NCBI RefSeq assembly: GCF_900258035.1
Contig: NZ_OGTP01000001.1
Span: forward strand, 310,001 to 374,000
Length of the DNA stretch: 64,000 bases
Direction of reading: 5' to 3'
DNA from: Caballeronia novacaledonica
GTDB taxonomy: Bacteria > Pseudomonadota > Gammaproteobacteria > Burkholderiales > Burkholderiaceae
Shown here: piece by piece, positions 4,103 to 64,000 of the stretch
Layout of the letters: every line of letters starts with the position of its first letter
How positions within the stretch are numbered: the stretch's first letter is position 1
The notes under the pieces: generated by a model
The model's input: only the letters and a program-made list of their open reading frames with translations
Databases searched by the model: none
What the model was told of the DNA's origin: nothing
Position numbers and translations under genes: made by a program

Positions 4103-4618
4103 ATGGCATCGAGTAAGGCGCATCATGCGACCGGTTGGGCGGCGGGCATCATCGCGGCGGCGGTCGTGATGCATCCGATAAAAGCCGCGACCGCGGACAT
4201 GCTGGCGGGCGCGCTGGCGCTGCTCGGGGGCATCGCCGGGGCCACCGCGCCCGACTGGCTCGAAGTCGCGTGGTGGACGCGCGCGCGCAGACTCTGGATC
4301 ACGCATCGCACGCTCACGCACTGGGGCATCGGCTGGGCCGCGCTGTTCGCGCTTTCGTATCACTTTCTCGGGCGGCATCCGGCGGCGTCGGTCGCGTTCG
4401 GCTTCGCGTGCGGCGGCCTCATGCATCTCTTCGCGGACTGGCCGAATCCGCTCGGCGTGCCGTGGATCGCCGGGCGACATTCCCTCAGACTGTGGACGAG
4501 CGGGCATTGCGATCTGATCATCGTCGCGGGTTCGTGGGCTGCGGCGCTTTTCGTCGTCGACGATGTCTGGTTTCATCATGCCTACGGACGCATGCTGCTG
4601 AATGCGCTGCACATCTAG
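4103..4618 (+). CDS. DUF457 (YdjM-like) membrane-bound putative metal-dependent hydrolase
   Basis: A 171-residue inner-membrane protein with several hydrophobic segments. His and Asp residues are placed as in the DUF457/YdjM family: an early HH, a PDW motif near residue 51, HRTLTHW near 72-78, then HLFADWPNPLG near 112-122. The family is annotated as LexA-regulated or phospholipase-like metal-dependent hydrolases, but its substrate is not established. The next gene (a lipoprotein) starts 27 bases downstream on the same strand, so the two may be co-transcribed. No LexA box was seen upstream. Confidence 0.8.
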   Translation: MASSKAHHATGWAAGIIAAAVVMHPIKAATADMLAGALALLGGIAGATAPDWLEVAWWTRARRLWITHRTLTHWGIGWAALFALSYHFLGRHPAASVAFGFACGGLMHLFADWPNPLGVPWIAGRHSLRLWTSGHCDLIIVAGSWAAALFVVDDVWFHHAYGRMLLNALHI

Positions 4619-5140: not shown

Positions 5141-5562
5141 GACGCCGACGCTTCCCGCGGATCGTAAGGCACGACGCGATCCGCCTCGTTGGCGTCGTTG
5201 CGGGCGATCACCGCGCGCGCAGGTTCGGTCGCGCTGAGATTGACCGGCTGATGCGGCACGCCAGGCGGAATGAAGACGAAGTCGCCCGGCTCGTTGATGA
5301 CCGACTCCGCCAGTCCCGGCCCATAGCGCGTCTCGATGCGTCCTTCGAGTATGTAGATGCCCGTCTCGTAGCCCACGTGGACATGCGGTTCGCCACGCCC
5401 GCCCGGCGGCACGACGACGAGATGCATCGCGAGGCCGCGCGTGCCGGCCGTCGCCGCCGACAATCCGATGAAATAAGGCAGATGCTGAACCGTCGCGAGC
5501 TTTTCCTGCGGCCGCACGGTAACGACCGTCTGCTGCGCTGTCTCTTGCGTGGTGACCTGCAT
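5134..5562 (-). CDS. Cupin domain protein
   Basis: A 142-residue single-domain beta-barrel cupin. The metal-site motif 1 is present as GEPHVHVGYETGIYILEG (about residues 58-75), and motif 2 as GDFVFIPPGVPHQPVN (about 96-111). The reaction is not identifiable; many small cupins are sugar, phenolic or amino-acid-derivative binders or dioxygenases. A longer frame reaches 5625, but the ATG at 5562 has a strong GGAGGA ribosome site six bases upstream and is chosen. It diverges from the glutamate dehydrogenase gene. Confidence 0.85.
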   Translation of the reverse strand: MQVTTQETAQQTVVTVRPQEKLATVQHLPYFIGLSAATAGTRGLAMHLVVVPPGGRGEPHVHVGYETGIYILEGRIETRYGPGLAESVINEPGDFVFIPPGVPHQPVNLSATEPARAVIARNDANEADRVVPYDPREASASQ

Positions 5563-5786
5563 GGCGATTCCTCCGTCGGCTCGATGCGCCGCTATCGACA
5601 ATAGCCGAATCCCGATGTCGCGCAAAGGTCACGCGGCCCGGCTAAGGTAGCCGAAAGGCGCGCACCGTGTTTGTGCAACCGCACATGCCCGACCCAGGGC
5701 CAAAGGCGCGGGCCGGCGCATAATCGCGTTGACTGATCCGAAGAGCGCCGTAACCGCATCGCAACCGAATGCCTCGGGAGGACACC

Positions 5787-8700
5787 ATGCTGGTCAAGAA
5801 CGAAGCGCGGGTCGAACAGCTCATCAACGATCTCCTCGACTTTGCGAGAGGACGCTTGCCGGAGCCTGCCTTCAAGGTCATCGAGCCGCTTCTTCGCTAT
5901 TACTACGAGCAGGTCGATGTCGAGGACATCGCGAGCCGCGATGTCGCCGATCTCTACGGCGCCGCGATGGCCCACTGGCAGACGGCGCAGAAGTTCGTGC
6001 GCGGGCGCGAGGTGCTGCGCGTCTATAACCCGAATCTGGAGCAGCACGGCTGGCACTCGGATCACACGGTCATCGAGATCGTCAACGACGACATGCCGTT
6101 TCTCGTCGACTCGGTGACGATGGAGTTGAACCGCCTCGGCCTCGCGCTGCATTCGGCGATTCATCCGGTGTTTCGCGTGTGGCGGTCCGGCAAGGGCGCG
6201 CACGCGGGCGAGATCGAGCGGATCGGTCAGGGGCACGCCGAAGCGGGCGACGGCAATTCCGAGCTCGAATCGTTCATCCATTTCGAAGTGGACCGCTGCG
6301 GCGACGGCGAGCGTCTCGAAGAAGTGCGCGACAGCATCGCGCGCGTGCTCGGCGACGTGCGCGCGGCGGTCGAAGACTGGCCGAAGGTGGTCGAAGCGGC
6401 GCGCGTCGCGATCGGCGATCTGAAGACGCGCGACACGACGCCCGACGGCATCGAGTCCCGCGCGTTCCTCGAATGGATGGTCGCGGATCATTTCACGTTC
6501 CTCGGCTGCCGCGATTACGAACTCGTCGAGCACGAAGGCGGTCCCGCGTTGCGCGGCGTGGCGGGCTCGGGCCTGGGCATCTTGCGCGAGACCTTGCGCG
6601 CGCCCTCCGCGAGCGACGTGACGCCGCTGCCGCCGGGCGCCGCCGCGATCATCGAGGGCGCGGCGCCCATCTTTCTGACGAAAGCCAATTCGCGCGCAAC
6701 GGTGCATCGGCCGGGCTATCTCGACTATGTCGGCGTGAAGCGCACGTCGCCCGATGGCAAGGTGACAGGCGAGCGGCGTTTTCTCGGCCTGTACACATCG
6801 ACCGCGTATCTCGTGCCGACGTCCGAAATCCCGATCGTGCGCCGCAAATGCGCGAACATCGTGCGGCGCGCGGGTTTCCTTGAAAAAGGGCATCTGGCGA
6901 AGTCGCTCATCACGGTGCTGGAGCAGTATCCGCGCGACGAGCTTTTCCAGGCCGACGAAGACGTGCTCTTCGATATCGCGATCGGCGTGCTGCGCCTTCA
7001 GGAACATCAGCGCACGCGGCTGTTCGTGCGCCGCGACCGCTTCGACCGTTTCGTGTCGTGCCTCGTCTTCGTGCCGCGCGACAAGTTCAACACCGACCTG
7101 CGCCGCCGCATCGGCCGCGTGCTGATGGAGGCGTTCAACGGCAAGAGCATCGAGTTCACGCCGCTCTTGTCGGAATCGCCGCTGGCGCGGATTCATATCG
7201 TCGTGCGTGCCGACCGGGGCGCGATGCCCGAAGTCGATACGCGCGAACTCGAAGCGCGCGTCGTGCAGGTCGCGCGCCGCTGGCAGGACGATCTCGCCGA
7301 CGCGCTCATCGACAGTCACGGCGAAGAAGCGGGCAACCGTCTGCTGCAGCGCTATGCCGATTCGTTCCCCGCCGGTTATCGCGAAGACTATCCGGCGCGC
7401 ACGGCGGTACGCGATATCGAGTTGATCGAGGCGACGCACACGCGCCCCGGCGGTCTGTCGATGAGTCTGTATCGTCCGATCGAAGCCGGGCGGCGCGCGT
7501 TCCGCTTCAAGGTGTATCGCGTCGGCGATCCGATCGCCTTGTCGCACAGCCTGCCGATGCTCGAACATCTCGGCGTGCGCGTCGATGAAGAGCGGCCGTA
7601 TCTGATCGAGCCGACCGGCGCGCCCAACGCATGGGTCCACGATTTCGGCCTCGAATTGCAGGACGACGTCGAGTTCGATATCGATCGCGTGAAGCCGCTC
7701 TTCGAGAACGCGTTCGCGAGCGTGTGGTCGGGCGAGATCGAGAACGACGACTACAACCGCCTCGTGTTGCGCGCGGAGTTCGGCGCGCGCGACGTGACCA
7801 TCATGCGCGCGTATGCGAAGTATCTGCGACAAGTCGGCTCCACGTTCAGCGATGCGTATATCGAGCGCGCGCTGATCGGCAATCCGCTGATCGCGAAGAA
7901 GCTCTTGCAACTCTTCATGGTGCGCTTCGATCCGGCGCGCGGCGGATCGGCGGAAGATCGCGACAAGGCCGCCGAACGCGCGCTCGCGGATATCGAAGCG
8001 GCGCTCGATCAGGTGCCGAATCTCGACGAAGACCGCATCTTGCGTCAGTTCCTCGGCGTCATCACGGCGACGGTGCGCACGAACCATTTCCATCGCGATG
8101 CGCACGGCCAGCCACGTCCGTATGTGTCGTTCAAGCTCGATCCTTCGAACGTGCCGGGCCTGCCCGAGCCCAAGCCGATGTTCGAGATCTGGGTCTATGC
8201 GCCGCGCGTGGAAGGCGTGCACTTGCGAGGTGGACGTGTCGCGCGCGGCGGGCTGCGCTGGTCGGATCGCCGCGAAGATTTCCGCACGGAAGTGCTCGGC
8301 CTCATGAAAGCGCAGATGGTGAAGAACACGGTGATCGTGCCGGTGGGATCGAAGGGCGGCTTCGTCGTGAAGAATCCGCCGCCGGCGACGGACCGCGAAG
8401 CGTTTCTCAACGAAGGCGTCGCGTGCTATCAGATGTTCCTGCGCGGCCTGCTCGACGTGACCGACAACCGCACGCCCGATGGCATCGTGCCGCCGCCGGA
8501 TGTCGTGCGCCACGATCCCGACGATCCCTATCTCGTCGTCGCGGCGGACAAGGGCACGGCGACGTTCTCCGACTACGCGAACGCGATTGCGCACGAATAC
8601 GGCTTCTGGCTCGACGATGCCTTCGCGTCCGGCGGTTCGGTCGGCTACGACCACAAGAAGATGGGTATCACCGCGCGCGGCGCGTGGGAATCGGTGAAGC

Positions 8701-53765: not shown

Positions 53766-56552
53766 TCAGCGGATGAGCTTCAATCCCGCAGGCAGCGTTT
53801 CGCCGAAGACGCGGCCTTCGTCGGCGCGATCGAGTTCGACGGTCTCGCGGACCATCGCGATCCACGCCTGCGCCGCGCCTATCGTTTCGAGGCGTTGCAC
53901 GACGGCCGCGCGCGCCTCGCCGGGCAGGTCGCGCGAGCGGTCGCCGGTCATGCGCGCGATCTGCACGGCGGCGAACGCGGCGGGATCGACTTTCTTCCAG
54001 TCGAGCGCGAGAATCGAATCGAGCCACATGACGGCGACTTCCGGCGGCACGACGCCGTGCGCGCTGCCATAGAAGGGCGCGCGCGCACCGATGCGGCCGA
54101 CCGCCCACCAGCTCTGCACGTTCTCCGAAGGCTTTTTCAGGCGCGTGAGCAGCCACTCGCCGACTTCGATCTTGCGCTCGACGGGCACGCGCTCCAGCGA
54201 CGCCGCGAGCCGGACCATGTCCTCGTAGCCCGCGCGCGCCGCGCCCGCCGCCTTCCGATAGCGGCTGGTTCCCGGCGGCTGGAGCACGAAGGCCATGTCG
54301 TCCAGGAGGCGCAACTGCGCCGCTTCGGGAAGACCGCCGGCGGCGCGGCGCCACAGCGTCCACCATTCGGACCAGATCTGGCTTTCGTTGCTGTACTGGA
54401 TGCCCTGATCGAAGAGCGTCCACAACTGCTCGACGCGCCATTCGTCGAGCGGATGCCCGAAGCCCGGCCGCATGCAGTAGCCCGCGAGATTGAGCCACAG
54501 GCGCTCGTGATCGGCGCTTCGGCGGCGCTTCTTCGCGCGCTCGAACAACGCGCCGAACAGTTCGCGCAAAAGCGCGATGTCCCACGTGTCGCGCGCGCCG
54601 AGCGTCTGTTCGAGCTGCGCGCGCAGGCGTTTGGCTTCCTTCGGGCCGACGTCGTGCGATTTCGCGCCGAACGTGCGGTCGATGAGTTCGACGGCTTTCG
54701 GCAGCGCCGGATGCGATTCGCTCGCGGCGTCGTCGCTTTGGGGCGCTTCGCGGCGTAGCTGAAATTCGAGCAGCCAGCGTTTCGCGGGATCGTCGACGGC
54801 GATGCAATGCATCTCCAGCGTGCCGACTTCCGTGAGCGATGTCGTCAACTGAACCGCGGTTTCGCGCGCTTTGCCTTTGTCGGCGGCGTGCGGATCGACC
54901 ACGGTCGCGACCGGCGGCAGACGCACGAAATCGCCCGATGCGGCCGCGAGGTCCGCCAGTTCGCCCGCCGCGAACGCCGTTTCCGTCACCGACGACGCCA
55001 GGTGAAAGCGCACCGGCGCGCCGAGCGTGAGCGCGAAAGTCCGGTCGGCGAGATGGATCGGCTGGCCTTCTTCCGTGCCGCGCGGCAGGACGCAGACGCC
55101 GCGCATCGCGGCGTCGTCGTCTTCGAGCAGCAAAAAGAAGCTGCGCGCCGAGCCGCCGCCGATCTTCGGCGCATGGCCCGCGCGCGCGAGCGCATAGGCG
55201 ACCGCGCCGCGCGCGACCGCGACATCGGGATCGCCGTTCGCGAGCACGTTGACCGCTGCGCCGCGCCAGCCGGAAAGCGTATCGGCGATGCGGCGCGCGA
55301 GCGGTGCGGCGCGAAACACGCCGCCGTTCAGCAGCAAGGTGTCCGGAATGGCGATCGTTTCATCGCTCGCGCCGAGCGCCTTGCGCGCCTCGCCCGCGTG
55401 CTGGCCGAGAAAGGCCGCGATGTGCCGCGTGATGGCCGGGTCGCTCGCATACGGCAGCCCGAATTCGACGATGCCGCCGCGCGCACGGCCCGGCCGGTCG
55501 CTCGCGGACACCATCGGAAAGAAGCCGTCGACGATGATTCGCTCGATTTCGTCGCGCGTGACATCCGCCGAACGCGCGCCGCCGACGAGCTTCGCGCCCG
55601 CGCCGAGCAGCGTGATCGACGCGGAATCCGGCGCGTTTGCGCCGAGCAACTGCTCTTTCGCGGCGCGGCAGCGCTCGACCAGTTGCGACAGGCGCGCGGC
55701 GGACAGGCGCGCGTCGCTGTCCGCGAGACGCCGCTCGACGAGATGCGCGAGCGCGAGATCCATGTTGTCGCCGCCGAGCATCAGATGGTTGCCCACGCCG
55801 ATGCGCGTGAGCACCGGCTCGCCGTTTTCCATCGCGACCTGGATGAGCGTGAGGTCGGTCGTGCCGCCGCCGACATCGACGATCATCACGAGCCGCGTCG
55901 CGGCCAATTCGCCGGCGAGCGTCTCGCGATGGTGAAACAGCCAGTCGTAGAACGCGGCTTGCGGCTCCTCCAGCAGCCGCAGCGATTCGAGCCCCGCCAT
56001 GCGCGCCGCTTCGAGCGTGAGGGCGCGCGCGCCTTCATCGAACGAGGCGGGAACGGTCAGCACGACGTCCTGCGCGTCGAGCGGCGCGTCGGGAAAGCGC
56101 TCGTTCCACGCGGCGTGCACGTGCGCCAGATAGCTTGCGCTCGCGATCACGGGCGAGATTTTTTCGACGTCGTCGCCCGCGCCCCACGGGAGAATGGGCG
56201 CGAGGCGATCGACCGCCGCATGCGACAGCCAGCTCTTCGCGCTCGACACGAGCCGTCCCGGCACATTCGCGCCGAGCTTGCGCGCGAAAGTGCCGATGAC
56301 GGCGGGCGCTTCCATCTCGCCCCACGGCAATTGCAGATCGGCGGATTTGAGTTCGCCGGGCGCGAAGTGATAGCGCAGCGAAGGCAGCAGCGGCCGCGCG
56401 GCGACTTCGCCCGCGCCGACGAGCTGGTCGATCTCGAACACGCGGATATCGCTCGATCCGGCCGGCGCATACGCGACGACGGTGTTGCTCGTTCCCAGAT
56501 CGATGCCGACGCTGTACCGCGCGCCCGAGACCTTTTTCTTGCGCGCGGACAC
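53766..56552 (-). CDS. Divergent Hsp70 protein with extended C-terminal domain (DUF3731-like)
   Basis: A 928-residue Hsp70-like ATPase. GIDLGTSNTVVAYAP (about 16-30) is the phosphate-1 loop, LLEEPQAAFYDWL (about 193-205) the connect region and DVGGGTTDLTLIQV (about 227-240) phosphate-2. The C-terminal ~330 residues are not a normal DnaK substrate-binding domain; they are helical, Trp-rich and lack EEVD, and resemble DUF3731. It starts with GTG immediately after the TAA of the other Hsp70 (zero gap). Its function is not known. It is clearly not the housekeeping DnaK, since no dnaJ or grpE is nearby. Confidence 0.9.
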   Translation of the reverse strand: MSARKKKVSGARYSVGIDLGTSNTVVAYAPAGSSDIRVFEIDQLVGAGEVAARPLLPSLRYHFAPGELKSADLQLPWGEMEAPAVIGTFARKLGANVPGRLVSSAKSWLSHAAVDRLAPILPWGAGDDVEKISPVIASASYLAHVHAAWNERFPDAPLDAQDVVLTVPASFDEGARALTLEAARMAGLESLRLLEEPQAAFYDWLFHHRETLAGELAATRLVMIVDVGGGTTDLTLIQVAMENGEPVLTRIGVGNHLMLGGDNMDLALAHLVERRLADSDARLSAARLSQLVERCRAAKEQLLGANAPDSASITLLGAGAKLVGGARSADVTRDEIERIIVDGFFPMVSASDRPGRARGGIVEFGLPYASDPAITRHIAAFLGQHAGEARKALGASDETIAIPDTLLLNGGVFRAAPLARRIADTLSGWRGAAVNVLANGDPDVAVARGAVAYALARAGHAPKIGGGSARSFFLLLEDDDAAMRGVCVLPRGTEEGQPIHLADRTFALTLGAPVRFHLASSVTETAFAAGELADLAAASGDFVRLPPVATVVDPHAADKGKARETAVQLTTSLTEVGTLEMHCIAVDDPAKRWLLEFQLRREAPQSDDAASESHPALPKAVELIDRTFGAKSHDVGPKEAKRLRAQLEQTLGARDTWDIALLRELFGALFERAKKRRRSADHERLWLNLAGYCMRPGFGHPLDEWRVEQLWTLFDQGIQYSNESQIWSEWWTLWRRAAGGLPEAAQLRLLDDMAFVLQPPGTSRYRKAAGAARAGYEDMVRLAASLERVPVERKIEVGEWLLTRLKKPSENVQSWWAVGRIGARAPFYGSAHGVVPPEVAVMWLDSILALDWKKVDPAAFAAVQIARMTGDRSRDLPGEARAAVVQRLETIGAAQAWIAMVRETVELDRADEGRVFGETLPAGLKLIR

Positions 56553-58439
56553 TTACAGGCCCATGCCCTGATCCGCGCTCACGCCGCCGCGCACGTCGAA
56601 CTCGACTTTCCAGCGCTCGGACGAACCGCGCGGAATCGCTTCGAGTTCGAGCGTGCCCGCTTCGGTCACGCGCGCATGCAGCTTGACGGGCACGACTTCG
56701 CCGGGCGTGCGGCCTTCCGGCGGCAGCGACGCCTCGATCTCCTCCAGTTCCTGCAATTCGTCCGGCTGCCAGTAGTCGAGAAGCGTGCCGACCTGATCCT
56801 GCCGCCGCACCGACGAGCCGAAGAAGCGGAAATGCACCGGCTCGCCGACGACGAGCCCGAATTCCTGCGCGGGCAACTCGGCGTCGGTGCCTTCCTCCAT
56901 GCCGAACGGCGCGACACACAGCGCCTGGACGGGCGGCTCCAGTCCGGGCACGGCGGGCATCGCCGATTCGACCGCGACGTAATACGCGCGCGCCGTGCCG
57001 CCGCGAATGCGCACGCCTTTGCCGCGCCGCACGTAACCGTAATAGGCCGCGCCGCGCGCGACGGCGAGATCGAGGTCCGCGCCTTCGAGCAGACGCGCGG
57101 GCGGCGCGTTTTCGGCGGCGAGCCACGAGTTCAGCGTCGACATCACGCGCTCGACGAGCAGCGGCGACTTGAAAACGCCGCCGTTGAAGAGCACGACGGT
57201 CGGATGCAAAAGCGTCGCGCCCGGCGGCGTTTCGTGCCGCAAGCCTTCGACTTCGGCGAGCGCGTTGACCTGACGGCCGAGGAACGCGGCGAGATGGCGC
57301 GTGACGGCGGCGTCCTGCGCGTAGGGCAGACCGAGTTGCGTGAGACCGACGCGCGCGCGCGAAACGGGCCGCGCCGATGCATCGACTTGCGGAAAAAAGC
57401 CTTCGAGCAGGATTTGCGTGAGTTCGGCGCGCGTAAGCTCGGTGCGCAACGAACCGCCGATCAGCTTCGAGCCGCGGCTCGGCACGACGAGCGGCACGGC
57501 GTCGGCGGACGGATCGGAAAGCAGCGTTTCCTTCGCCGCGCGGCACGCGTAGGTGAGGGCGCGCAACTGCCACGGATCGGGCTGCGTGCCCGCTTGCGCG
57601 AGCTTGCGCGCGACCGTGTGCGCGAGCGCGAGATCCATGTTGTCGCCGCCGAGCAGAATATGTTCGCCGACCGCGACGCGATGCAGTTCCAGATTGCCTT
57701 CGCGCTCGACGACCGCGATCAGCGACAGGTCGGTCGTGCCGCCGCCGACATCGACGACGAGAATCACGTCGCCCACGTTGACCTGCTTGCGCCAGCCGCC
57801 GCTCGACTTCTGGATCCAGCTATAGAGCGCGGCCTGCGGCTCTTCGAGCAGCGTCATGCGCGTGTAGCCGGCGGCCGCGGCGGCTTCGGCGGTGAGTTCG
57901 CGCGCGGCGGGATCGAACGACGCGGGAATCGTCACGGTGACGTCTTGCTGATCGAACGGCGCGTCCGGATGCGCGTGATTCCACGCTTCGCGCAAGTGCG
58001 TGAGATAGCGCACCGAGCTTTCCATCGGCGACACGCGCTCGACTTCCTCGGGCGCGTCGGACGGCAGGATCGCCGCGCGCCGGTCGACGCCCGGATGGCA
58101 CAGCCAGCTTTTCGCGCTGGAGACGAGCCGGATCGGCGTGCCCGCGCCACGGCTTCGCGCCAGCTCGCCGACGATGAACTTGCGTTCCTGCGTCCACGGC
58201 AGCGTCAGATCGCCGGGCGCGAGTTCGTTCTCGTGCGGCAAATAGAGGAACGAGGGCAGCAGATCGCGCTCTTCGGCGGCGCCGGGCGCGGTCAGTTGCG
58301 AGATCGGCAGCACGCCTTGCGCGGTCTTTTCGCCGTCGCTCGCGCTCATGTCGACGTAGGAGAGCGCGCAATGCGTCGTGCCGAGATCGACGCCGATGGA
58401 GTAGCGCGCGTGGTTTTCGTTGCTGTCGATATCGCTCAC
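56553..58439 (-). CDS. Divergent Hsp70-family protein
   Basis: A 628-residue Hsp70-like ATPase starting with GTG. GVDLGTTHCALSYVDM (about 17-32) and DVGGGTTDLSLIAV (about 230-243) form the ATP-binding site. LLGGDNMDLALAH (about 262-274) and FNGGVFKSPLLVERV (about 415-429) complete the actin-like fold. The C-terminal ~110 residues form a short beta-rich domain, and the classical lid is absent. The start overlaps the DUF2760 stop (GTGA). With the neighbouring Hsp70 it forms a conserved-looking three-gene unit of unknown role. Confidence 0.9.
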   Translation of the reverse strand: MSDIDSNENHARYSIGVDLGTTHCALSYVDMSASDGEKTAQGVLPISQLTAPGAAEERDLLPSFLYLPHENELAPGDLTLPWTQERKFIVGELARSRGAGTPIRLVSSAKSWLCHPGVDRRAAILPSDAPEEVERVSPMESSVRYLTHLREAWNHAHPDAPFDQQDVTVTIPASFDPAARELTAEAAAAAGYTRMTLLEEPQAALYSWIQKSSGGWRKQVNVGDVILVVDVGGGTTDLSLIAVVEREGNLELHRVAVGEHILLGGDNMDLALAHTVARKLAQAGTQPDPWQLRALTYACRAAKETLLSDPSADAVPLVVPSRGSKLIGGSLRTELTRAELTQILLEGFFPQVDASARPVSRARVGLTQLGLPYAQDAAVTRHLAAFLGRQVNALAEVEGLRHETPPGATLLHPTVVLFNGGVFKSPLLVERVMSTLNSWLAAENAPPARLLEGADLDLAVARGAAYYGYVRRGKGVRIRGGTARAYYVAVESAMPAVPGLEPPVQALCVAPFGMEEGTDAELPAQEFGLVVGEPVHFRFFGSSVRRQDQVGTLLDYWQPDELQELEEIEASLPPEGRTPGEVVPVKLHARVTEAGTLELEAIPRGSSERWKVEFDVRGGVSADQGMGL

Positions 58440-59029
58440 AGTTCCACCTCCGCCGGCGCGACGATGCTTGCATCATGGGACGGCGCGAGCTTCGGCAGGC
58501 GCGTGTCTTCGACCTTCCAGCCGCGATGGCTGACGTTGCCGCTGAAGGGCGGCTTGCCGACGACATTGCCCGTCAGACGGACAGCGGCCGCATCGAAGCC
58601 TTCCTGCAATGTGACGCGGCTGCCTTCGGCTTCCGTGCGCACGGGCTTGATCGTGAAGTGTTCGCGCAGCACCGCGCGGCAGCCGTCGTGCACGAGGCGG
58701 GCGGCCGCGCCGATATCGGCATCGCTGTAATTGGCGATGTCCTCTTCGACGAAATCGATGAAACGCGCATCGCGTTGCAGAAGGCCGAGCAACTGAAGCG
58801 CGGCGACCGGGCTTGCTTCCTTCAGCACGGACGGCGCGGGTGCGGGCGCGGGCGCCGGCTGCACGGGCGCGGCGGCGGGCTTCGGCGCTTCGGTCGTGAA
58901 ATCGGGCGCTTCGGGCGCTTCGCGCAGGCGCTGCACGCGGCCCGCGAACGCTGCGTTGCCCAGAACGCCGAAGAAGACGCCGAAGGCAATGCCTATCCTG
59001 CCGAAAAAGCCTGGATTCATGTCGGTCAT
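58436..59029 (-). CDS. DUF2760 protein, first gene of Hsp70 pair operon
   Basis: A 197-residue protein. The N-terminal hydrophobic segment (about 8-28, RIGIAFGVFFGVLGNAAFAG) is a possible membrane anchor. Next are a Pro/Ala-rich linker (about 45-68) and the DUF2760 core (about 75-195: LLGLLQRDARFIDFVEEDI; GAAARLVHDGCRAVLREHF; VSHRGWKVEDTRLPKL). It overlaps the following Hsp70 by four bases. It may recruit the two Hsp70 proteins to the inner membrane; this is inference. Confidence 0.88.
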   Translation of the reverse strand: MTDMNPGFFGRIGIAFGVFFGVLGNAAFAGRVQRLREAPEAPDFTTEAPKPAAAPVQPAPAPAPAPSVLKEASPVAALQLLGLLQRDARFIDFVEEDIANYSDADIGAAARLVHDGCRAVLREHFTIKPVRTEAEGSRVTLQEGFDAAAVRLTGNVVGKPPFSGNVSHRGWKVEDTRLPKLAPSHDASIVAPAEVEL

Positions 59030-59282: not shown

Positions 59283-59768
59283 TCAGGCCTTGTAGCCGAT
59301 CTTGCGCAAGAGGTCCTTGCGCCACTGGACGTCTTCGGCGGTCTCCACGCCGAGCGGCGGCAGGCCGTCGACCACGCCGACGATCCCGCGCCCCTGATCC
59401 GTCTGCGCGACGAGCACCTGCGTCGGATTGGCGGTCGCGCAGAAGATGCGGCAGACCTCCGGCACGGCCTTCACCGTATTGAGCACGTTCACGGGAAAGA
59501 AGCCGTCGCCGAGCACGATGATGAAACTGTGCCCCGCGCCGATGCTTTGCGCATTGCGCGCGGCCATCTCGACGAGCCCGTCGTCGGTGCCCGACGTGCG
59601 CACGAGCCGCTTGCCCGACGCCTCGCAGAACGCGAGCCCGAAGCGAATGCCCGGCACCGCGCCGACGAGCGCTTCGTGCAGATCCTCGACCGTCTTGATG
59701 AAATGCGACTGGCCGAGGATGAAGTTGGTGTCCTCGGGCTTGTCGATGGCGATGGCGAGCAGTTCCAT
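59283..59768 (-). CDS. Adenosine-specific kinase family protein
   Basis: A 161-residue protein that is a complete adenosine-specific kinase (DUF355/Adenosine_kin) domain. MELLAIAIDKPEDTNFILGQ at the start, SGKRLVRTSGTDDGLVEMA (about 51-69), GHSFIIVLGDGFFPVNVLN (about 79-97) and VGVVDGLPPLGVE (about 128-140) are typical. The annotation comes from structure-based work; the physiological reaction in proteobacteria is uncertain. It stands alone between the nas genes and the Hsp70 operon. Confidence 0.9.
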   Translation of the reverse strand: MELLAIAIDKPEDTNFILGQSHFIKTVEDLHEALVGAVPGIRFGLAFCEASGKRLVRTSGTDDGLVEMAARNAQSIGAGHSFIIVLGDGFFPVNVLNTVKAVPEVCRIFCATANPTQVLVAQTDQGRGIVGVVDGLPPLGVETAEDVQWRKDLLRKIGYKA

Positions 59769-59813: not shown

Positions 59814-60935
59814 CTACGCGCGCATTTCGAAGCCCGCGAGATACGCCGCCGCATCGCCGCCGTCCCAGACGCGGGCATCGCAGAACGTGGCTGCGTGCCG
59901 CTCGGCGGGCAGCGCGACGCCCGCCGCCTGCGCCGCGTCGCGGTACAGCGCCGTCTGATTGACGCTCGCCGCGATGCCCGCATCGTCGATATCGGCGTCG
60001 AGCAGGCCCCAGCGCCGGTATTGCGTGATGAACCACAGTCCGTCCGATACGCGCGGATAGTTGACCGCGCCGCCATCGAAGAAGCGCACCGGCAGCGCGC
60101 GCGCAGCGCCGCCGTCCGCGGCGACGAGGCGCGGTTCGATCAGTCGAGACGGCACGCCGAGCAACGTTTCCGACGCCAGCGCCTGCACGATCTCCGTGCG
60201 ATGCGCGGTCGAATCGAGCCATGCGCACGCGTCGAGCATCGTGCGCACGAGCGCGCGCGCCGTCGCCGGATAGAGCGCCGCGAAATCGCGCCGGCACGCG
60301 AGCACTTTTTCCGGGTGATCCGGCCAGATCTCGCTCGTGTACGCGACCGTTCCGCCCGCATTGCGCGCCTCGGCGACCGCGTGCCACGGCTCGCCCGCGC
60401 AGAAGCCGTCGAGCGCGCCTTCGACGAGCGCATCGGCCATGCGCGGCGGCGGAATCACGACGCTCTGCACGTCGCGCAACGGATGCACGCCGTGCGCCGC
60501 GAGCCAGTAGTAGAGCCACATCGCGTGCGTGCCGGTCGGAAACGTCTGCGCGATGACGGGCTTGCGTTCGAGCGTTCGCAGCGCATCCTTCACGCTCGCG
60601 CCGCCTCGAATCGCATCGGCGAGCGGACGCGACAGCGTGATCGCCTGACCGTTGCGATTGAGGACCATCAGCACCGCCATGTCCGCTTGCGGCCCGCCGA
60701 TGCCCAGTTGCACGCCGTACACGAGCCCATAGAGCGCGTGCGCGGCGTCGATTTCGCCGGAGAGCAGCTTGTCGCGCACGGCGGCCCACGACGGCTGGCG
60801 GCACAGTTCGATCGCGATGCCGTGCCGCGCGCCGAGTTCGCGCAACGCGGCGACGGCGAGCGGCGCGGCATCGGAAAGCGCGACGAAGCCGAGCCGCAGA
60901 TGCGTGCGTTCGGGCGGGGAAGAAGTGATGTTCAT
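59814..60935 (-). CDS. nasS: NasS, nitrate-sensing NrtA-like protein
   Basis: A 373-residue protein of the CmpA/NrtA nitrate-binding family but without a signal peptide, so it is cytosolic, as NasS is. Features include LRLGFVALSDAAPLAVAAL (about 13-31), AVLMVLNRNGQAITLS (about 85-100) and VIPPPRMADALVEGALDGFCAGEPWHAVAEA (about 157-187). In Azotobacter and Pseudomonas NasS binds NasT and holds it inactive until nitrate releases it. It lies 15 bases downstream of nasT on the same strand, which supports the assignment over a transporter subunit. Confidence 0.9.
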   Translation of the reverse strand: MNITSSPPERTHLRLGFVALSDAAPLAVAALRELGARHGIAIELCRQPSWAAVRDKLLSGEIDAAHALYGLVYGVQLGIGGPQADMAVLMVLNRNGQAITLSRPLADAIRGGASVKDALRTLERKPVIAQTFPTGTHAMWLYYWLAAHGVHPLRDVQSVVIPPPRMADALVEGALDGFCAGEPWHAVAEARNAGGTVAYTSEIWPDHPEKVLACRRDFAALYPATARALVRTMLDACAWLDSTAHRTEIVQALASETLLGVPSRLIEPRLVAADGGAARALPVRFFDGGAVNYPRVSDGLWFITQYRRWGLLDADIDDAGIAASVNQTALYRDAAQAAGVALPAERHAATFCDARVWDGGDAAAYLAGFEMRA

Positions 60936-60950
60936 AAGATGTCGAAAAAG

Positions 60951-61523
60951 CTAGAGCAAGTCGGACAGCGCGAGCAGTTGGCGCGCGATCTCCGCGACCT
61001 TCACGCCCTGATCCATCGCGCGCTTGCGAAGGGCCGCGTAGGCATCGTTTTCGGACATGCCGCGCTTGTCCATCAGCAGGCGTTTTGCGCGATCGATGAC
61101 CTTGCGCTGCGCCAGTTCATCCTCGACTTGCGCGAGACGCAGACGCAATTGTTCTTCATGCGCGAAACGCGCGAGCGCGACTTCGATGATCGGCGCGAGC
61201 CGCGCGGGCGCGAGCCCTTCGACGGAATACGCGGTAACGCCCGCGCCGACCGCCGCGCGGATGAATTGCTGATCCGCGTCGTTGCTGAACATCAGCACGG
61301 GACGCGGCGCGGCCTTGTTCATCACGGCGAGTTGTTCGAGCGTGTCGCGCGAGGGCGATTCGGTATCGATGATGACGACATCGGGCTTCTGGCTCTCGAC
61401 GGCCTCGTGCAAGGCCGAAGGCGCGGCGACTTCGGCGAGCATGTCGTAGCCCATGCGCGCGAGTTGCTCGCGCAGATCGCCGATGGGCTTGTCGGTGTCG
61501 GTGACGAGAAGTACGCGCAGCAT
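60951..61523 (-). CDS. nasT: NasT, ANTAR-domain transcription antiterminator
   Basis: A 190-residue protein with an N-terminal pseudo-receiver domain (VLLVTDTDKPIGDLREQLARMG; Asp in VVIIDTESPS) and a C-terminal ANTAR domain (about 120-185). The ANTAR includes VEDELAQRKVIDRAKRLLMDKRGMSENDAYAALRKRAMDQG, an RNA-binding three-helix unit. It stabilises a two-hairpin leader RNA and prevents termination of nitrate-assimilation transcripts. Such a leader is present upstream of the divergent nitrate transporter (62769-62887). ATG 61523 is used; the in-frame ATG at 61553 would overlap the cobA stop. Confidence 0.92.
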   Translation of the reverse strand: MLRVLLVTDTDKPIGDLREQLARMGYDMLAEVAAPSALHEAVESQKPDVVIIDTESPSRDTLEQLAVMNKAAPRPVLMFSNDADQQFIRAAVGAGVTAYSVEGLAPARLAPIIEVALARFAHEEQLRLRLAQVEDELAQRKVIDRAKRLLMDKRGMSENDAYAALRKRAMDQGVKVAEIARQLLALSDLL

Positions 61524-61542
61524 GCGGGACGCGGAACCCGCT

Positions 61543-62310
61543 TCATGCGGCATGAGCGAAGCCTTTGGCGCTTGCCGCGCGCGCCGCGAATTCAGCCGCT
61601 TCTCCGATCGCGCCGCCGACGAGAATCACCGCGGGACTGCCGAGCCCGGCGGCGACGGCTTCATCGGCGAGCCGGCCGAGCGTCGTGGCGAGCCGCTTCT
61701 CTTGCGGCGATCCCGCGTTCTGCACGACGGCGGCGGGCGTGTTCGAAGGCAACGTGTCCATCAACGATGCCGTGAGGCTCGCGATACGGCTCATGCCCAT
61801 GTAGATCGCGAGCGTGGTGCCGGTGGCGGCGAGCGCGGCCCAGTCGGGCTGACTGTGATCCTGCATGTGCGCGGTGACGAAGGTCACGCCCTGACAATGA
61901 TCGCGATGCGTGAGCGAGATGCCGAGACCCGCAGCCGCCGCGAAGCCCGACGACACGCCGTTGACGATATCGACCGGGACATGCGCTTCACGCAATGCGG
62001 CGATCTCTTCGCCCGCGCGGCCGAAGAGCAGGGCGTCGCCGCCTTTCACGCGCACCACATGCAATCCCTTCTTCGCGTAGCGCTGCATGAGGCGCTGAAT
62101 GAACGCTTGCGGCGTCGACTTGCAGCCGCCGCGTTTGCCGACGCGAATCACGCGCGCATGCGGCGCGAGCGTGACGATGTCGGCGTTGGCGAGATCGTCG
62201 AGAAGCAGGATGTCGGCGGACGCGAGCGCTTTCGCGGCGCGCAGGGTCAGCAGGTCGATATCGCCGGGACCCGCGCTCAATAGAGTGACTTTGCCTTTGA
62301 TGGTGTTCAT
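61543..62310 (-). CDS. cobA: Uroporphyrinogen-III C-methyltransferase (SUMT)
   Basis: A 255-residue S-adenosylmethionine-dependent enzyme that makes precorrin-2, the precursor of sirohaem for nitrite and sulfite reductases. VTLLSAGPGDIDLLTLRAAKAL (about 9-30), VRVGKRGGCKSTPQAFIQRLM (about 57-77), VRVKGGDALLFGRAGEE (about 87-103) and SLTHRDHCQGVTFVTAH (about 132-148) are SUMT signatures. It heads the leftward unit with nasT and nasS, which suits supply of sirohaem for assimilatory nitrite reductase. Confidence 0.94.
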   Translation of the reverse strand: MNTIKGKVTLLSAGPGDIDLLTLRAAKALASADILLLDDLANADIVTLAPHARVIRVGKRGGCKSTPQAFIQRLMQRYAKKGLHVVRVKGGDALLFGRAGEEIAALREAHVPVDIVNGVSSGFAAAAGLGISLTHRDHCQGVTFVTAHMQDHSQPDWAALAATGTTLAIYMGMSRIASLTASLMDTLPSNTPAAVVQNAGSPQEKRLATTLGRLADEAVAAGLGSPAVILVGGAIGEAAEFAARAASAKGFAHAA

Positions 62311-62602
62311 CGTTGCTTACCTGTCCTGTGGGCGCATCGGCGCGGCAAACGCCGATAGCGTCCGCTCGTGTCGCTGCACGATGGGGACGCCTTTGTCCTT
62401 GCTCTTCCGATTCGAGAGGCCGCGAACGCCGTTGCCCGCAGTGCTTTTATCAATGCAATAAGCGGGCCATTGTGCGAAAACGGTTGCAGAAGCGATGTTC
62501 ATCGCACCGCCCTTGTGCGCGAACGCGGCATACGGCACCGCTTCGGCGCGAGCGTGCGTCGTTCGAGTGACGAAGGGATTAACCGGTTCGTACAGAACCC
62601 GC
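62311..62602. other. Gene-free part of the cobA-narK divergent region
   Basis: About 290 bases between the cobA start and the NtrC-like dyads. A short minus-strand frame (62317-62538) lacks a ribosome site and product similarity. It presumably holds the cobA-nasTS promoter; a further imperfect GCACC-GCTTC-GGCGC dyad lies at 62535-62549. Confidence 0.5.
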
Positions 62603-62638: not shown

Positions 62639-62738
62639 CCGTCTGCATCGAAACGCGCCGCGATGCGCGTGCGCACACGTAGTGCATGTATTCCGCAAAG
62701 CCATATGCATCGGGGATTTCAAGCCGATGCGCAATGCA

Positions 62739-62754
62739 TGGCACAGCCCTTGCC
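62739..62754 (+). promoter_or_regulatory. Sigma-54 (-24/-12) promoter of the nitrate transporter
   Basis: TGGCAC-AGCCC-TTGCC matches the sigma-54 consensus TGGCAC-N5-TTGCW, with GG and GC separated by exactly 10 bp. Transcription is predicted to begin near 62764, five bases before the first leader hairpin. Confidence 0.82.
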
Positions 62755-62768
62755 TTATGTCTCGCCAT

Positions 62769-62887
62769 CGGATCAACGGCGATCCGCCCTGAATACAGCG
62801 CCCGGCACGTGAATATGTGCGGGCATCGGACAACGGCGTCCCCCGCATCGGCTTCCCGGTCGAATGCGCGGGACGCCTTTCTTTTTT
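62769..62887 (+). ncRNA. ANTAR-type leader RNA with overlapping intrinsic terminator
   Basis: Hairpin P1 is CGGATC-AACGGC-GATCCG (62769-62786). Hairpin P2 is GCGGG-(CATC bulge)-GGAC-AACGGC-GTCC-CCCGC (62819-62846). Both hexaloops are AACGGC, with A at position 1 and G at position 4, the hallmark of ANTAR target RNA. The terminator stem (62835-62848 / 62864-62877, 14 bp with one mismatch) uses P2's loop and 3' arm, and ends in TTTCTTTTTT (62878-62887). P2 and the terminator are therefore mutually exclusive. NasT binding should favour P1/P2 and allow read-through into the nitrate transporter. Confidence 0.88.
62835..62887 (+). terminator. Regulated intrinsic terminator in the nitrate transporter leader
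   Basis: Left arm GGCGTCCCCCGCAT, right arm ATGCGCGGGACGCC, 15-nt loop, then TTTCTTTTTT just 11 bases before the transporter ATG. It is placed to stop transcription before the gene unless the overlapping P2 hairpin forms. Confidence 0.9.
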
Positions 62888-62898
62888 GCGGAAAGACG

Positions 62899-64000
62899 AT
62901 GGACAAAGCCACCCGGATCGATCTCTTCAGCATGCGCAGCGCGCCGATGCGCGCCTTCCATCTCACGTGGATGGCGTTCTTCGTGTGCTTCTTCGCGTGG
63001 TTCGCCTGCGCGCCGCTGATGCCGCTCATCAAGCGCGAGTATGGCCTCACTGCGGATCAGGTCGCCAACATCAACATCGCGGCCGTCGCCGTGACGATTC
63101 TGGTGCGCCTCGTCGTCGGTCCGATGTGCGATCGCTTCGGACCGCGCAAGGTGTACAGCGCGCTGCTGCTCGCCGGTTCGGCGCCCGTGCTCGGCGCGGC
63201 GCTTTCGACGGGCTACGACAGCTTCCTCTGGTGCCGTCTCGCGATCGGCGCGATCGGCGCGAGCTTCGTCATCACGCAGTACCACACGTCGGTGATGTTC
63301 GCGCCGAACGTCGTCGGCACCGCGAACGCGACGACCGCCGGCTGGGGCAACGCTGGCGCGGGCGCCGCGCAGGCGATCATTCCGCTCTTCGTCGCGGCCG
63401 CGATCGCGCTCGGCACGGGCGAAGCATCGGCATGGCGCGTCGCGCTCATCGTGCCGGGCATCGCGATGCCGGTGATGGCGTTCTTCTACTGGCGCTATAC
63501 GCAGGACTGTCCGCAGGGTGATTTCGCGACGCTGCGCCGCGCGGGCATCGCCATCGACGGCGGCAAGAAGGGCGGCTGGCAGAGCTTCCTCACCGCATGC
63601 GCGAACTATCGCGTGTGGATGTTGTTCGTGACGTACGGCGCGTGCTTCGGCGTCGAAGTGTTCATCCACAACATGGCGGCGGTGTACTACGTCGATCACT
63701 TCAATCTCACGCTCGGTCAGGCGGGCATGGCGGCGGGCAGCTTCGGCCTGCTCGCGCTCTTCGCGCGCGCGCTCGGCGGCTGGCTTTCCGATAAAGCGGC
63801 GGCGAAGAAAGGCCTCGATATCCGCGCGACGCTGCTCTTCGCGCTGATCGCGGGCGAAGGCATCGGTCTCTATGCCTTCGCGCATGCGTCGAGCGTCGTG
63901 CTCGCGATCGTCGCGATGCTGACGTTCGGTCTCTTCACGCATATGGCGTGCGGCGCGACGTACGCGCTGGTTCCGTTCATCGATCGCAAGGCGCTCGGCG
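62899..64000 (+). CDS. Nitrate/nitrite transporter, NarK/NasA-type MFS (3'-truncated)
   Basis: At least 367 residues of a major-facilitator protein that continues past the window. AFHLTWMAFFVCFFAWFACAPLMPLIKREYG (about 18-48) and VGPMCDRFGPRKVYS (about 74-88, the MFS loop-2 motif) mark the NarK family. The nitrate signature follows in helix 5 as GWGNAGAGAAQAIIPL (about 150-165), and the substrate Arg is expected in helix 2 (ILVRLVVGP). Expression is predicted to need sigma-54/NtrC (nitrogen limitation) and NasT antitermination (nitrate). Assimilatory nitrite and nitrate reductase genes probably follow outside the window. Confidence 0.92.
   Translation, partial: MDKATRIDLFSMRSAPMRAFHLTWMAFFVCFFAWFACAPLMPLIKREYGLTADQVANINIAAVAVTILVRLVVGPMCDRFGPRKVYSALLLAGSAPVLGAALSTGYDSFLWCRLAIGAIGASFVITQYHTSVMFAPNVVGTANATTAGWGNAGAGAAQAIIPLFVAAAIALGTGEASAWRVALIVPGIAMPVMAFFYWRYTQDCPQGDFATLRRAGIAIDGGKKGGWQSFLTACANYRVWMLFVTYGACFGVEVFIHNMAAVYYVDHFNLTLGQAGMAAGSFGLLALFARALGGWLSDKAAAKKGLDIRATLLFALIAGEGIGLYAFAHASSVVLAIVAMLTFGLFTHMACGATYALVPFIDRKALG

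Follow-up and report, generated by a model that had tools for sequence, protein, structure and literature searches.

Leaders read by NasT are reportedly present upstream of nas genes in Azotobacter vinelandii and upstream of nirBD in Pseudomonas aeruginosa. Together with Paracoccus denitrificans nasA and Bradyrhizobium nosR, these systems resemble the locus described here in that all of them combine nasS-nasT, a hairpin leader read by NasT, and nitrate-assimilation or nos genes downstream. The Klebsiella nasF leader is likewise controlled by nitrate-responsive ANTAR antitermination, but its reader, NasR, is a one-component NIT-ANTAR sensor, whereas the present genome encodes NasS and NasT, and no further ANTAR protein was found in it. 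For Paracoccus, two reports describe binding of NasT to the nasA leader, nitrate-dependent release of NasT from NasS, and the loss of growth on nitrate in a hairpin mutant (PMC3795266, PMC5424462).

ANTAR leaders operating by such a logic are already known (PMC3369931, PMC3369936). Specifically, the two-hairpin motif of Ramesh et al. 2012 shares with our locus the A1/G4 hexaloops and a second hairpin (P2) overlapping an intrinsic terminator, and matches to it in Pseudomonas and Burkholderia were reported there (PMC3369931). In addition, sigma54 promoters upstream of nasT have been predicted (PMC12316311).

A predicted ANTAR attenuator upstream of narK

The window, that is, the whole stretch of 64,000 nucleotides of Caballeronia novacaledonica DNA analysed here, ends inside a nitrate/nitrite transporter gene, narK. 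Its product scored 268.7 bits against TIGR00886 for the part lying in the window and 286.8 bits for the entire gene, both below the cut-off of 311.7; nirB (TIGR02374, 1125.6 bits) and a nasA-like gene follow downstream. On the opposite strand lie cobA, nasT and nasS (Table 1). As in the NasS-NasT layout, the receiver-ANTAR protein adjoins an NMT1/NrtA-like sensor, which found no NasS-specific family match in the protein family scan and is named from its neighbourhood and the literature. An adenosine-specific kinase gene comes after nasS (59283-59768, - strand), here and at many Caballeronia loci, and at 53766-59029 on the same strand two neighbouring Hsp70-like proteins (one with DUF3731) and a DUF2760 protein are encoded in one apparent operon.

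Table 1. Features of the narK/cobA region, in positions of the window. Sigma54 and NtrC sites were called with consensus sequences drawn from general knowledge.
Feature	Position	Strand	Details
nasS, NMT1-like, presumed nitrate/nitrite sensor	59814..60935	-	PF13379
nasT, receiver + ANTAR protein	60951..61553	-	sole ANTAR protein found in the genome
cobA, uroporphyrinogen-III C-methyltransferase (siroheme)	61543..62310	-	NF004790 and TIGR01469, above cut-off
Extra hairpin immediately 3' of the terminator-like hairpin, second leader	62336..62356	-	-11.6 kcal/mol; equalled by 3/200 shuffles
Terminator-like hairpin overlapping P2, second leader	62357..62391	-	-18.9 kcal/mol; 0/200 shuffles as good
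P2, second leader	62385..62398	-	loop AAAGGC
P1, second leader	62420..62441	-	loop AACGGC
Predicted sigma54 promoter, cobA-nasT-nasS leader	62454..62469	-	TGGCCCGCTTATTGCA; 36 bases 5' of the P1 loop
NtrC-like palindrome	62670..62686	.	TGCGCACACGTAGTGCA; 69 bases 5' of the sigma54 element of narK; 1 mismatch to consensus
Predicted sigma54 (-24/-12) promoter, narK leader	62739..62754	+	TGGCACAGCCCTTGCC; starts 36 bases 5' of the P1 loop
P1, narK leader	62769..62786	+	6 pairs; loop AACGGC at 62775-62780 (A1, G4)
Linker hairpin between P1 and P2, narK leader	62800..62824	+	-15.3 kcal/mol; 2/200 shuffles as good
P2 (proposed antiterminator), narK leader	62828..62841	+	loop AACGGC at 62832-62837
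Predicted intrinsic terminator, narK leader	62835..62887	+	overlaps P2; U-rich tail
narK, nitrate/nitrite transporter	62899..64000, continues past the window	+	TIGR00886

The original prediction had placed a NasT-type ANTAR switch before narK, made of two hairpins with identical AACGGC hexaloops, the second overlapping the 5' arm of a strong terminator 11 bases before the ATG, with a NasT-type gene encoded divergently nearby. Each of these elements was recovered: the bases common to P2 and the terminator arm are 62835-62841, the T-rich tail stops 11 bases short of the start codon, and nasT starts 1.2 kb from P1. The switch is supported by its anatomy and synteny, by covariation, and by the detection of a single ANTAR protein in the genome. 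Neither the sigma54 promoter nor the second leader, described below, had been part of the original prediction. The complete + strand layout runs from a predicted sigma54 promoter through P1, a linker hairpin and P2 to the overlapping terminator, and in other narK leaders the sigma54 element begins at a similar distance, 35-36 bases 5' of the P1 loop. An NtrC-like site with at most one mismatch is present in 18 of 32 divergent regions, the window included (0.9% in shuffles), and 13 of the 18 share the offset of 69 bases.

When the leader was folded, as had been suggested, the stretch 62740-62900 proved more stable than 198 of 200 shuffles. The terminator hairpin (62835-62877; -31.8 kcal/mol) was equalled by 0/200 shuffles, and P1 and P2 taken singly are of ordinary stability, with 23/200 and 22/200 shuffles as good. 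The linker measures 41 nt, longer than the approximately 32 nt first estimated. The stem that it was said to hold does exist, with CCCGGCAC (62801-62808) as its 5' arm and GTGCGGG (62817-62823) as its 3' arm; the two arms pair with each other and not with the base of P2. The proposed third, anti-P2 conformation was rejected, since 3 nt separate the linker stem from P2 and the minimum free energy (MFE) fold holds the two apart.

The position of the narK tail, near the presumed ribosome-binding site, is what might be expected of hairpins whose effect is on translation or on the stability of the RNA and not on transcription. Such a role is hardly credible, given that a strong terminator followed by a U-rich tail (8-10 T per 12 bases) is found in 35/35 narK leaders.

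A second, divergent leader upstream of cobA-nasT-nasS

A scan for two hexaloop hairpins with an overlapping terminator returned two matches in the window, each directly 5' of a nitrate-assimilation operon. The same scan gave 29 matches in 10.27 Mb of shuffled DNA, that is, about 0.4 expected per window over both strands, the shuffles preserving the composition of each 50-base block and not dinucleotides. A simple terminator scan of both strands of the window found none, its loop limit of 8 probably excluding such long hairpins. The second match is a further ANTAR leader about 0.4 kb from that of narK, on the - strand and upstream of cobA-nasT-nasS, with a P1-P2 linker of 21 nt (23 nt when P1 is limited to 6 pairs). 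Both leaders show two A1/G4 hexaloop hairpins of at least 3 pairs and an overlap between P2 and the terminator, in a genome that encodes an ANTAR protein. In a search of the whole genome the exact P2 motif occurred twice, both times in the narK/cobA intergenic region.

The terminator-like hairpin of the second leader has no U-tract behind it in this genome (4 T in the next 12 bases). Among 30 of the 32 cobA-side leaders, which could be scored, the tract contains 4-5 T per 12 bases in several close relatives and 6-10 in others, a U-tract thus being present in other Caballeronia. Furthermore, the complete - strand leader is no more stably folded than its shuffles (z -0.80; 37/200); its MFE structure contains P2 and lacks P1 and the terminator, the centroid structure has the terminator, and the folded stretch included untranscribed promoter. 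The cobA-side terminator may be leaky or a relict in this genome.

As cobA is followed on its own strand by nasT and nasS, the regulator pair would come under the second leader. In conclusion, the narK leader adds a member to the known class of ANTAR attenuators, and a divergent pair that probably places the regulator under its own attenuator is the new arrangement. Compared with the NasT-dependent nas leaders already described, two divergent leaders are present here, one of them before the operon encoding NasT and NasS; the available text on Paracoccus and Bradyrhizobium describes no such self-leader on the regulator operon.

Distribution of the paired leaders

Among 80 named NasT loci, the closest relatives being from Caballeronia, 34 hold narK beside nasT, and all 34 have the narK leader. 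At these same 34 loci the cobA-side leader was located by script in 31 and by eye in two more (L014, L015); the exception, in Caballeronia glathei (L026), has lost cobA and the cobA-side hairpins and has kept a sigma54-like site on the nasT side. At that locus narK lies close to nasT (5560-6010). Two further loci without narK on the stretch (L016, L021) have a cobA-side leader visible by eye. The remaining 44 loci come mostly from Paraburkholderia and Pandoraea, and the script detected no leader on the stretches examined there. As it had missed the cobA-side leaders of L014, L015, L016 and L021, its negatives are no proof of absence. It also gave seven matches off any true P2, five distant from leaders and two (L006, L012) in which P1 was mistaken for P2. 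A1 and G4 are built into the leader scans as a requirement, for P2 of the P11-type loci discussed below as well; less biased are the 34/34 loci, whose choice was based on gene content, and the P11-type loci, which were picked with an Rfam model.

Within the genus, the exact P2 motif is present in 51 of 58 genomes and a close divergent pair, counted by eye, in 47. The seven genomes without the motif (G003, G005, G009, G015, G025, G026, G044) are all small (2.4-5.1 Mb; G026 is 60% complete), which suggests that nitrate assimilation was lost in them during genome reduction. Some equally small genomes of the genus (G019, G050) retain the divergent pair.

The exact P2 motif is carried by 94 of 150 genomes sampled more widely across the family. 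Of 18 motif-bearing stretches from other genera, 16 are located at genes of nitrate assimilation, nasT/nasS or cobA, and two (L150, L152) are not. The leader is followed by cobA together with nasT and nasS in L135, L141 and L142, and by cobA, with no nasT on the stretch, in L136-L140.

Covariation of the helices

The covariation check proposed with the original prediction was carried out on all 35 narK leaders, 34 distinct sequences being used for P1 and P2. In these two helices 99.4% of the cells are paired, and the covariation score was matched by 0/500 shuffles. The signal comes from P1, in which three of six pairs have changed on both sides; in P2 none of the four pairs has done so and three are invariant, so that covariation hardly tests this helix. 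Similarly, six of the outer eight pairs of the terminator, most of them common to P2, are invariant (14/500 shuffles scored as high), and both-side changes appear in the inner pairs. The outcome that would have counted against the prediction, an absence of covariation, was not observed for P1 or for the linker stem; the inner terminator pairs covary as well, and P2 and the pairs that it shares are scarcely informative.

With regard to the linker stem, 17 distinct close relatives, the window included, have both-side changes in three of its ten pairs, four pairs being invariant and one unpaired in 15 of the 17. The suggestion that this stem is a lineage-specific elaboration is not supported, because a hairpin at the equivalent place covaries in Pseudomonas-type relatives, where 29 distinct leaders show both-side changes in four of five pairs and 85.7% of the cells are paired.

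The cobA-side alignment comprised 30 of the 32 leaders, all distinct; L033 and L040, whose terminator end was not located, were omitted, as were the four leaders found by eye. Overall, 98.2% of the cells are paired, and 34 cells have changed on both sides compared with 12.2 in shuffles. The strong covariation of P1 suggests that NasT probably controls its own operon.

These data bear on a rival and, in our judgement, unlikely explanation, in which only the narK leader works, the - strand leader is a decaying, non-terminating copy, and nasT is controlled by sigma54/NtrC alone. The poor U-tract of the window and several close relatives and the unremarkable fold of the entire - strand leader would both be accounted for in this way. 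For Paraburkholderia, such control of nasT is suggested by two loci (L043, L060), where inspection by eye revealed a sigma54-like site for this gene and no hairpins. A decaying copy, however, is hard to reconcile with an inner P1 helix and two terminator helices that are 100% paired in the 30 aligned leaders, with many compensatory changes in P1 even in rows with a poor U-tract, or with a terminator hairpin far stronger than shuffles (Table 1).

A model for the divergent control unit

Building on the anatomy, conservation, covariation and gene content reported above, we propose that the two divergent ANTAR attenuators form a single control unit, a reading to which we assign a probability of about 85%. 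Judging from the sites, under nitrogen shortage NtrC and sigma54 polymerase would fire both promoters, and both transcripts would start almost at P1. Without nitrate, NasT would be held by NasS, the terminator would form, and transcription would be expected to end with a leader some 120 nt long. In the presence of nitrate or nitrite, NasT would be set free by NasS and could then bind the A1/G4 loops of P1 and P2; the 5' terminator arm would stay with P2, and polymerase would continue into narK, nirB and the nasA-like gene, presumably as one transcript. The second leader would impose the same control on siroheme synthesis (cobA) and, as a putative feedback, on the NasT/NasS pair itself. Its terminator, having no U-tract, is probably leaky and would thus maintain a basal pool of NasT and NasS. 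The nitrate regulator would then probably be subject to its own attenuator and form a pair with its target over a distance of a few hundred bases. Besides the missing U-tract and the unremarkable fold of the - strand leader and the long linkers discussed below, a published observation counts against the model: in Bradyrhizobium, where a NasT hairpin is predicted before narK, expression was higher, not lower, in a nasT mutant (PMC6759348).

Relationship to the P11 and narK RNA families

In an Rfam cmscan both window leaders matched P11 (RF00625) and narK RNA (RF03032), all four matches falling below the gathering scores (E 0.0001 to 0.051). For RF00625 the scores were 27.4 and 24.3 bits against a gathering score of 70, so far below that the window leaders are not formal members of P11; for RF03032 they were 37.0 and 25.5 bits against 43.2. 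A third P11-like match elsewhere in the genome has a terminator-like hairpin and no P1/P2 pair visible by eye. The two families have no common clan in Rfam. The P11 consensus nevertheless has the same order of parts as the narK leader, namely sigma54 boxes, P1 with loop AACGau, a linker hairpin, GGAC-AAAGGC-GUCC and a terminator. That of narK RNA comprises sigma54-like boxes, P1 with AACGGC, and CGAC-AAAGAC-GUCG, which is drawn unpaired and reads as P2; its model stops before the terminator.

Searches with RF00625 matched 28 of 58 genomes of the genus at E 0.05, none above the cut-off. Within the class 15 of 369 genomes, including that of the window, were matched at E 0.01, one of them above the cut-off, and for the Pseudomonas-type family 36 of 59 were matched, 29 of them above it. 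Neither family matched any of 14 control genomes. Examination of 43 P11-type loci revealed P2 and a terminator in 41, the exceptions being L103 and L100, from two P11-matching genomes (G114, G348, respectively) that have no NasT match at E 1e-6. Of these 41 loci, 39 have a sigma54-like element, and an A1/G4 P1 is present with at least three pairs in 35, with two pairs in four and not at all in two. All 41 are followed by a match to a NirB, NasA or NasS-like protein, the NirB proteins being 29-36% identical to that of Caballeronia.

NasT (E 1e-15) is encoded in 34 of the 59 Pseudomonas-type genomes, every one of which has P11, and 23 of the 25 genomes without NasT are also without P11 (Fisher 2e-14, phylogeny ignored). 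As for the two that have P11 and no NasT, G471 encodes a NIT-ANTAR protein of the NasR type, and G464 (78% complete) gave only a weak ANTAR-like match, in a scanned open frame without a Pfam match. The P11-type leader of G471 (L129), a genome with NasR and without NasT, is one of the two leaders with no A1/G4 hexaloop in P1. NIT-ANTAR proteins of the NasR type (L159, L161-L164) occur in genomes with P11-type leaders, G280, G394, G110 and G184 among them, and in G280, G394 and G184 the gene lies directly 5' of the leader. From the presence of such proteins in P11-leader genomes, NasT and NasR seem to be interchangeable readers of one leader class.

Taken together, these results make it likely that P11 and narK RNA are a single class of RNA, namely ANTAR attenuators that follow sigma54 promoters and are read by NasT or NasR. 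In Burkholderiaceae such a switch would also be placed on the operon of the regulator, and NasT would bridge linker lengths that abolish the response of EutV. If this holds, the P11 RNA of Pseudomonas would be the prematurely ended leader of the nitrate-assimilation operon, more abundant under nitrogen limitation and less so with nitrate, and P11 deletions should act in cis on the operon. The joining of two clan-less Rfam families under ANTAR control would be the most useful by-product of the analysis.

From the name and the papers, we take RF00625 to be the PA14 RNA of the work on worms. One paper presents the PA14 P11 as an sRNA that regulates the nitrogen assimilation operon and whose level depends on growth conditions (PMC12080996), and inherited pathogen avoidance in worms carried by P11 is disputed in another (PMC11942167). 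The sRNA description, which is the usual one for P11, together with the listing of P11 under type Gene in Rfam, would suit a terminated leader that acts chiefly as a small RNA in trans and only secondarily as a switch. We consider that very improbable, as the loops, the overlap of P2 with the terminator, the nitrate genes 3' of 41/41 P11-type loci and the co-occurrence with NasT or NasR fit a cis-acting switch. For the disputed experiments, in which growth conditions are said to be decisive, the attenuator reading predicts that ammonium or nitrate supply sets the amount of P11. A literature search of incomplete coverage found no paper tying P11 or narK RNA to ANTAR or NasT, which is weak evidence of absence.

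Linker length and the EutV spacing rule

In eut leaders the P1-P2 linker is 5-12 nt long and its lengthening abolished the response to EutV, according to two papers (PMC3369931, PMC8934654), the first of which leaves the linker variable in its definition of the ANTAR motif. By comparison, both leaders of the window lie outside this range, established for EutV, and one of them contains a hairpin of its own in the linker. When P1 was limited to 6 pairs throughout, the linkers of NasT leaders spanned 12-73 nt, in conflict with the EutV spacing rule. This broad natural range provides a test of how far the rule reaches.

The idea that a linker hairpin restores a fixed spacing was unsupported, as the unpaired remainder of the linkers was close to that of shuffled ones in all four sets (11.5/12.1, 11.1/10.1, 10.0/8.3 and 11.2/11.4 nt, real/shuffled). 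Nor did linker length predict foldedness, whether over all leaders (Spearman -0.16, p 0.10) or over the P11-type ones (-0.17, p 0.31). Seven long cobA-side linkers (L033-L036, L038-L040) have an MFE hairpin just 5' of P2, the mean z of the entire cobA-side set being -0.23. Finally, most of the narK linkers of L031, L033-L036 and L038-L040 (about 4340-4590, - strand) contain a GCCC..GGGC hairpin and then a T run before P2, a combination resembling a further small intrinsic terminator placed between the two hairpins.
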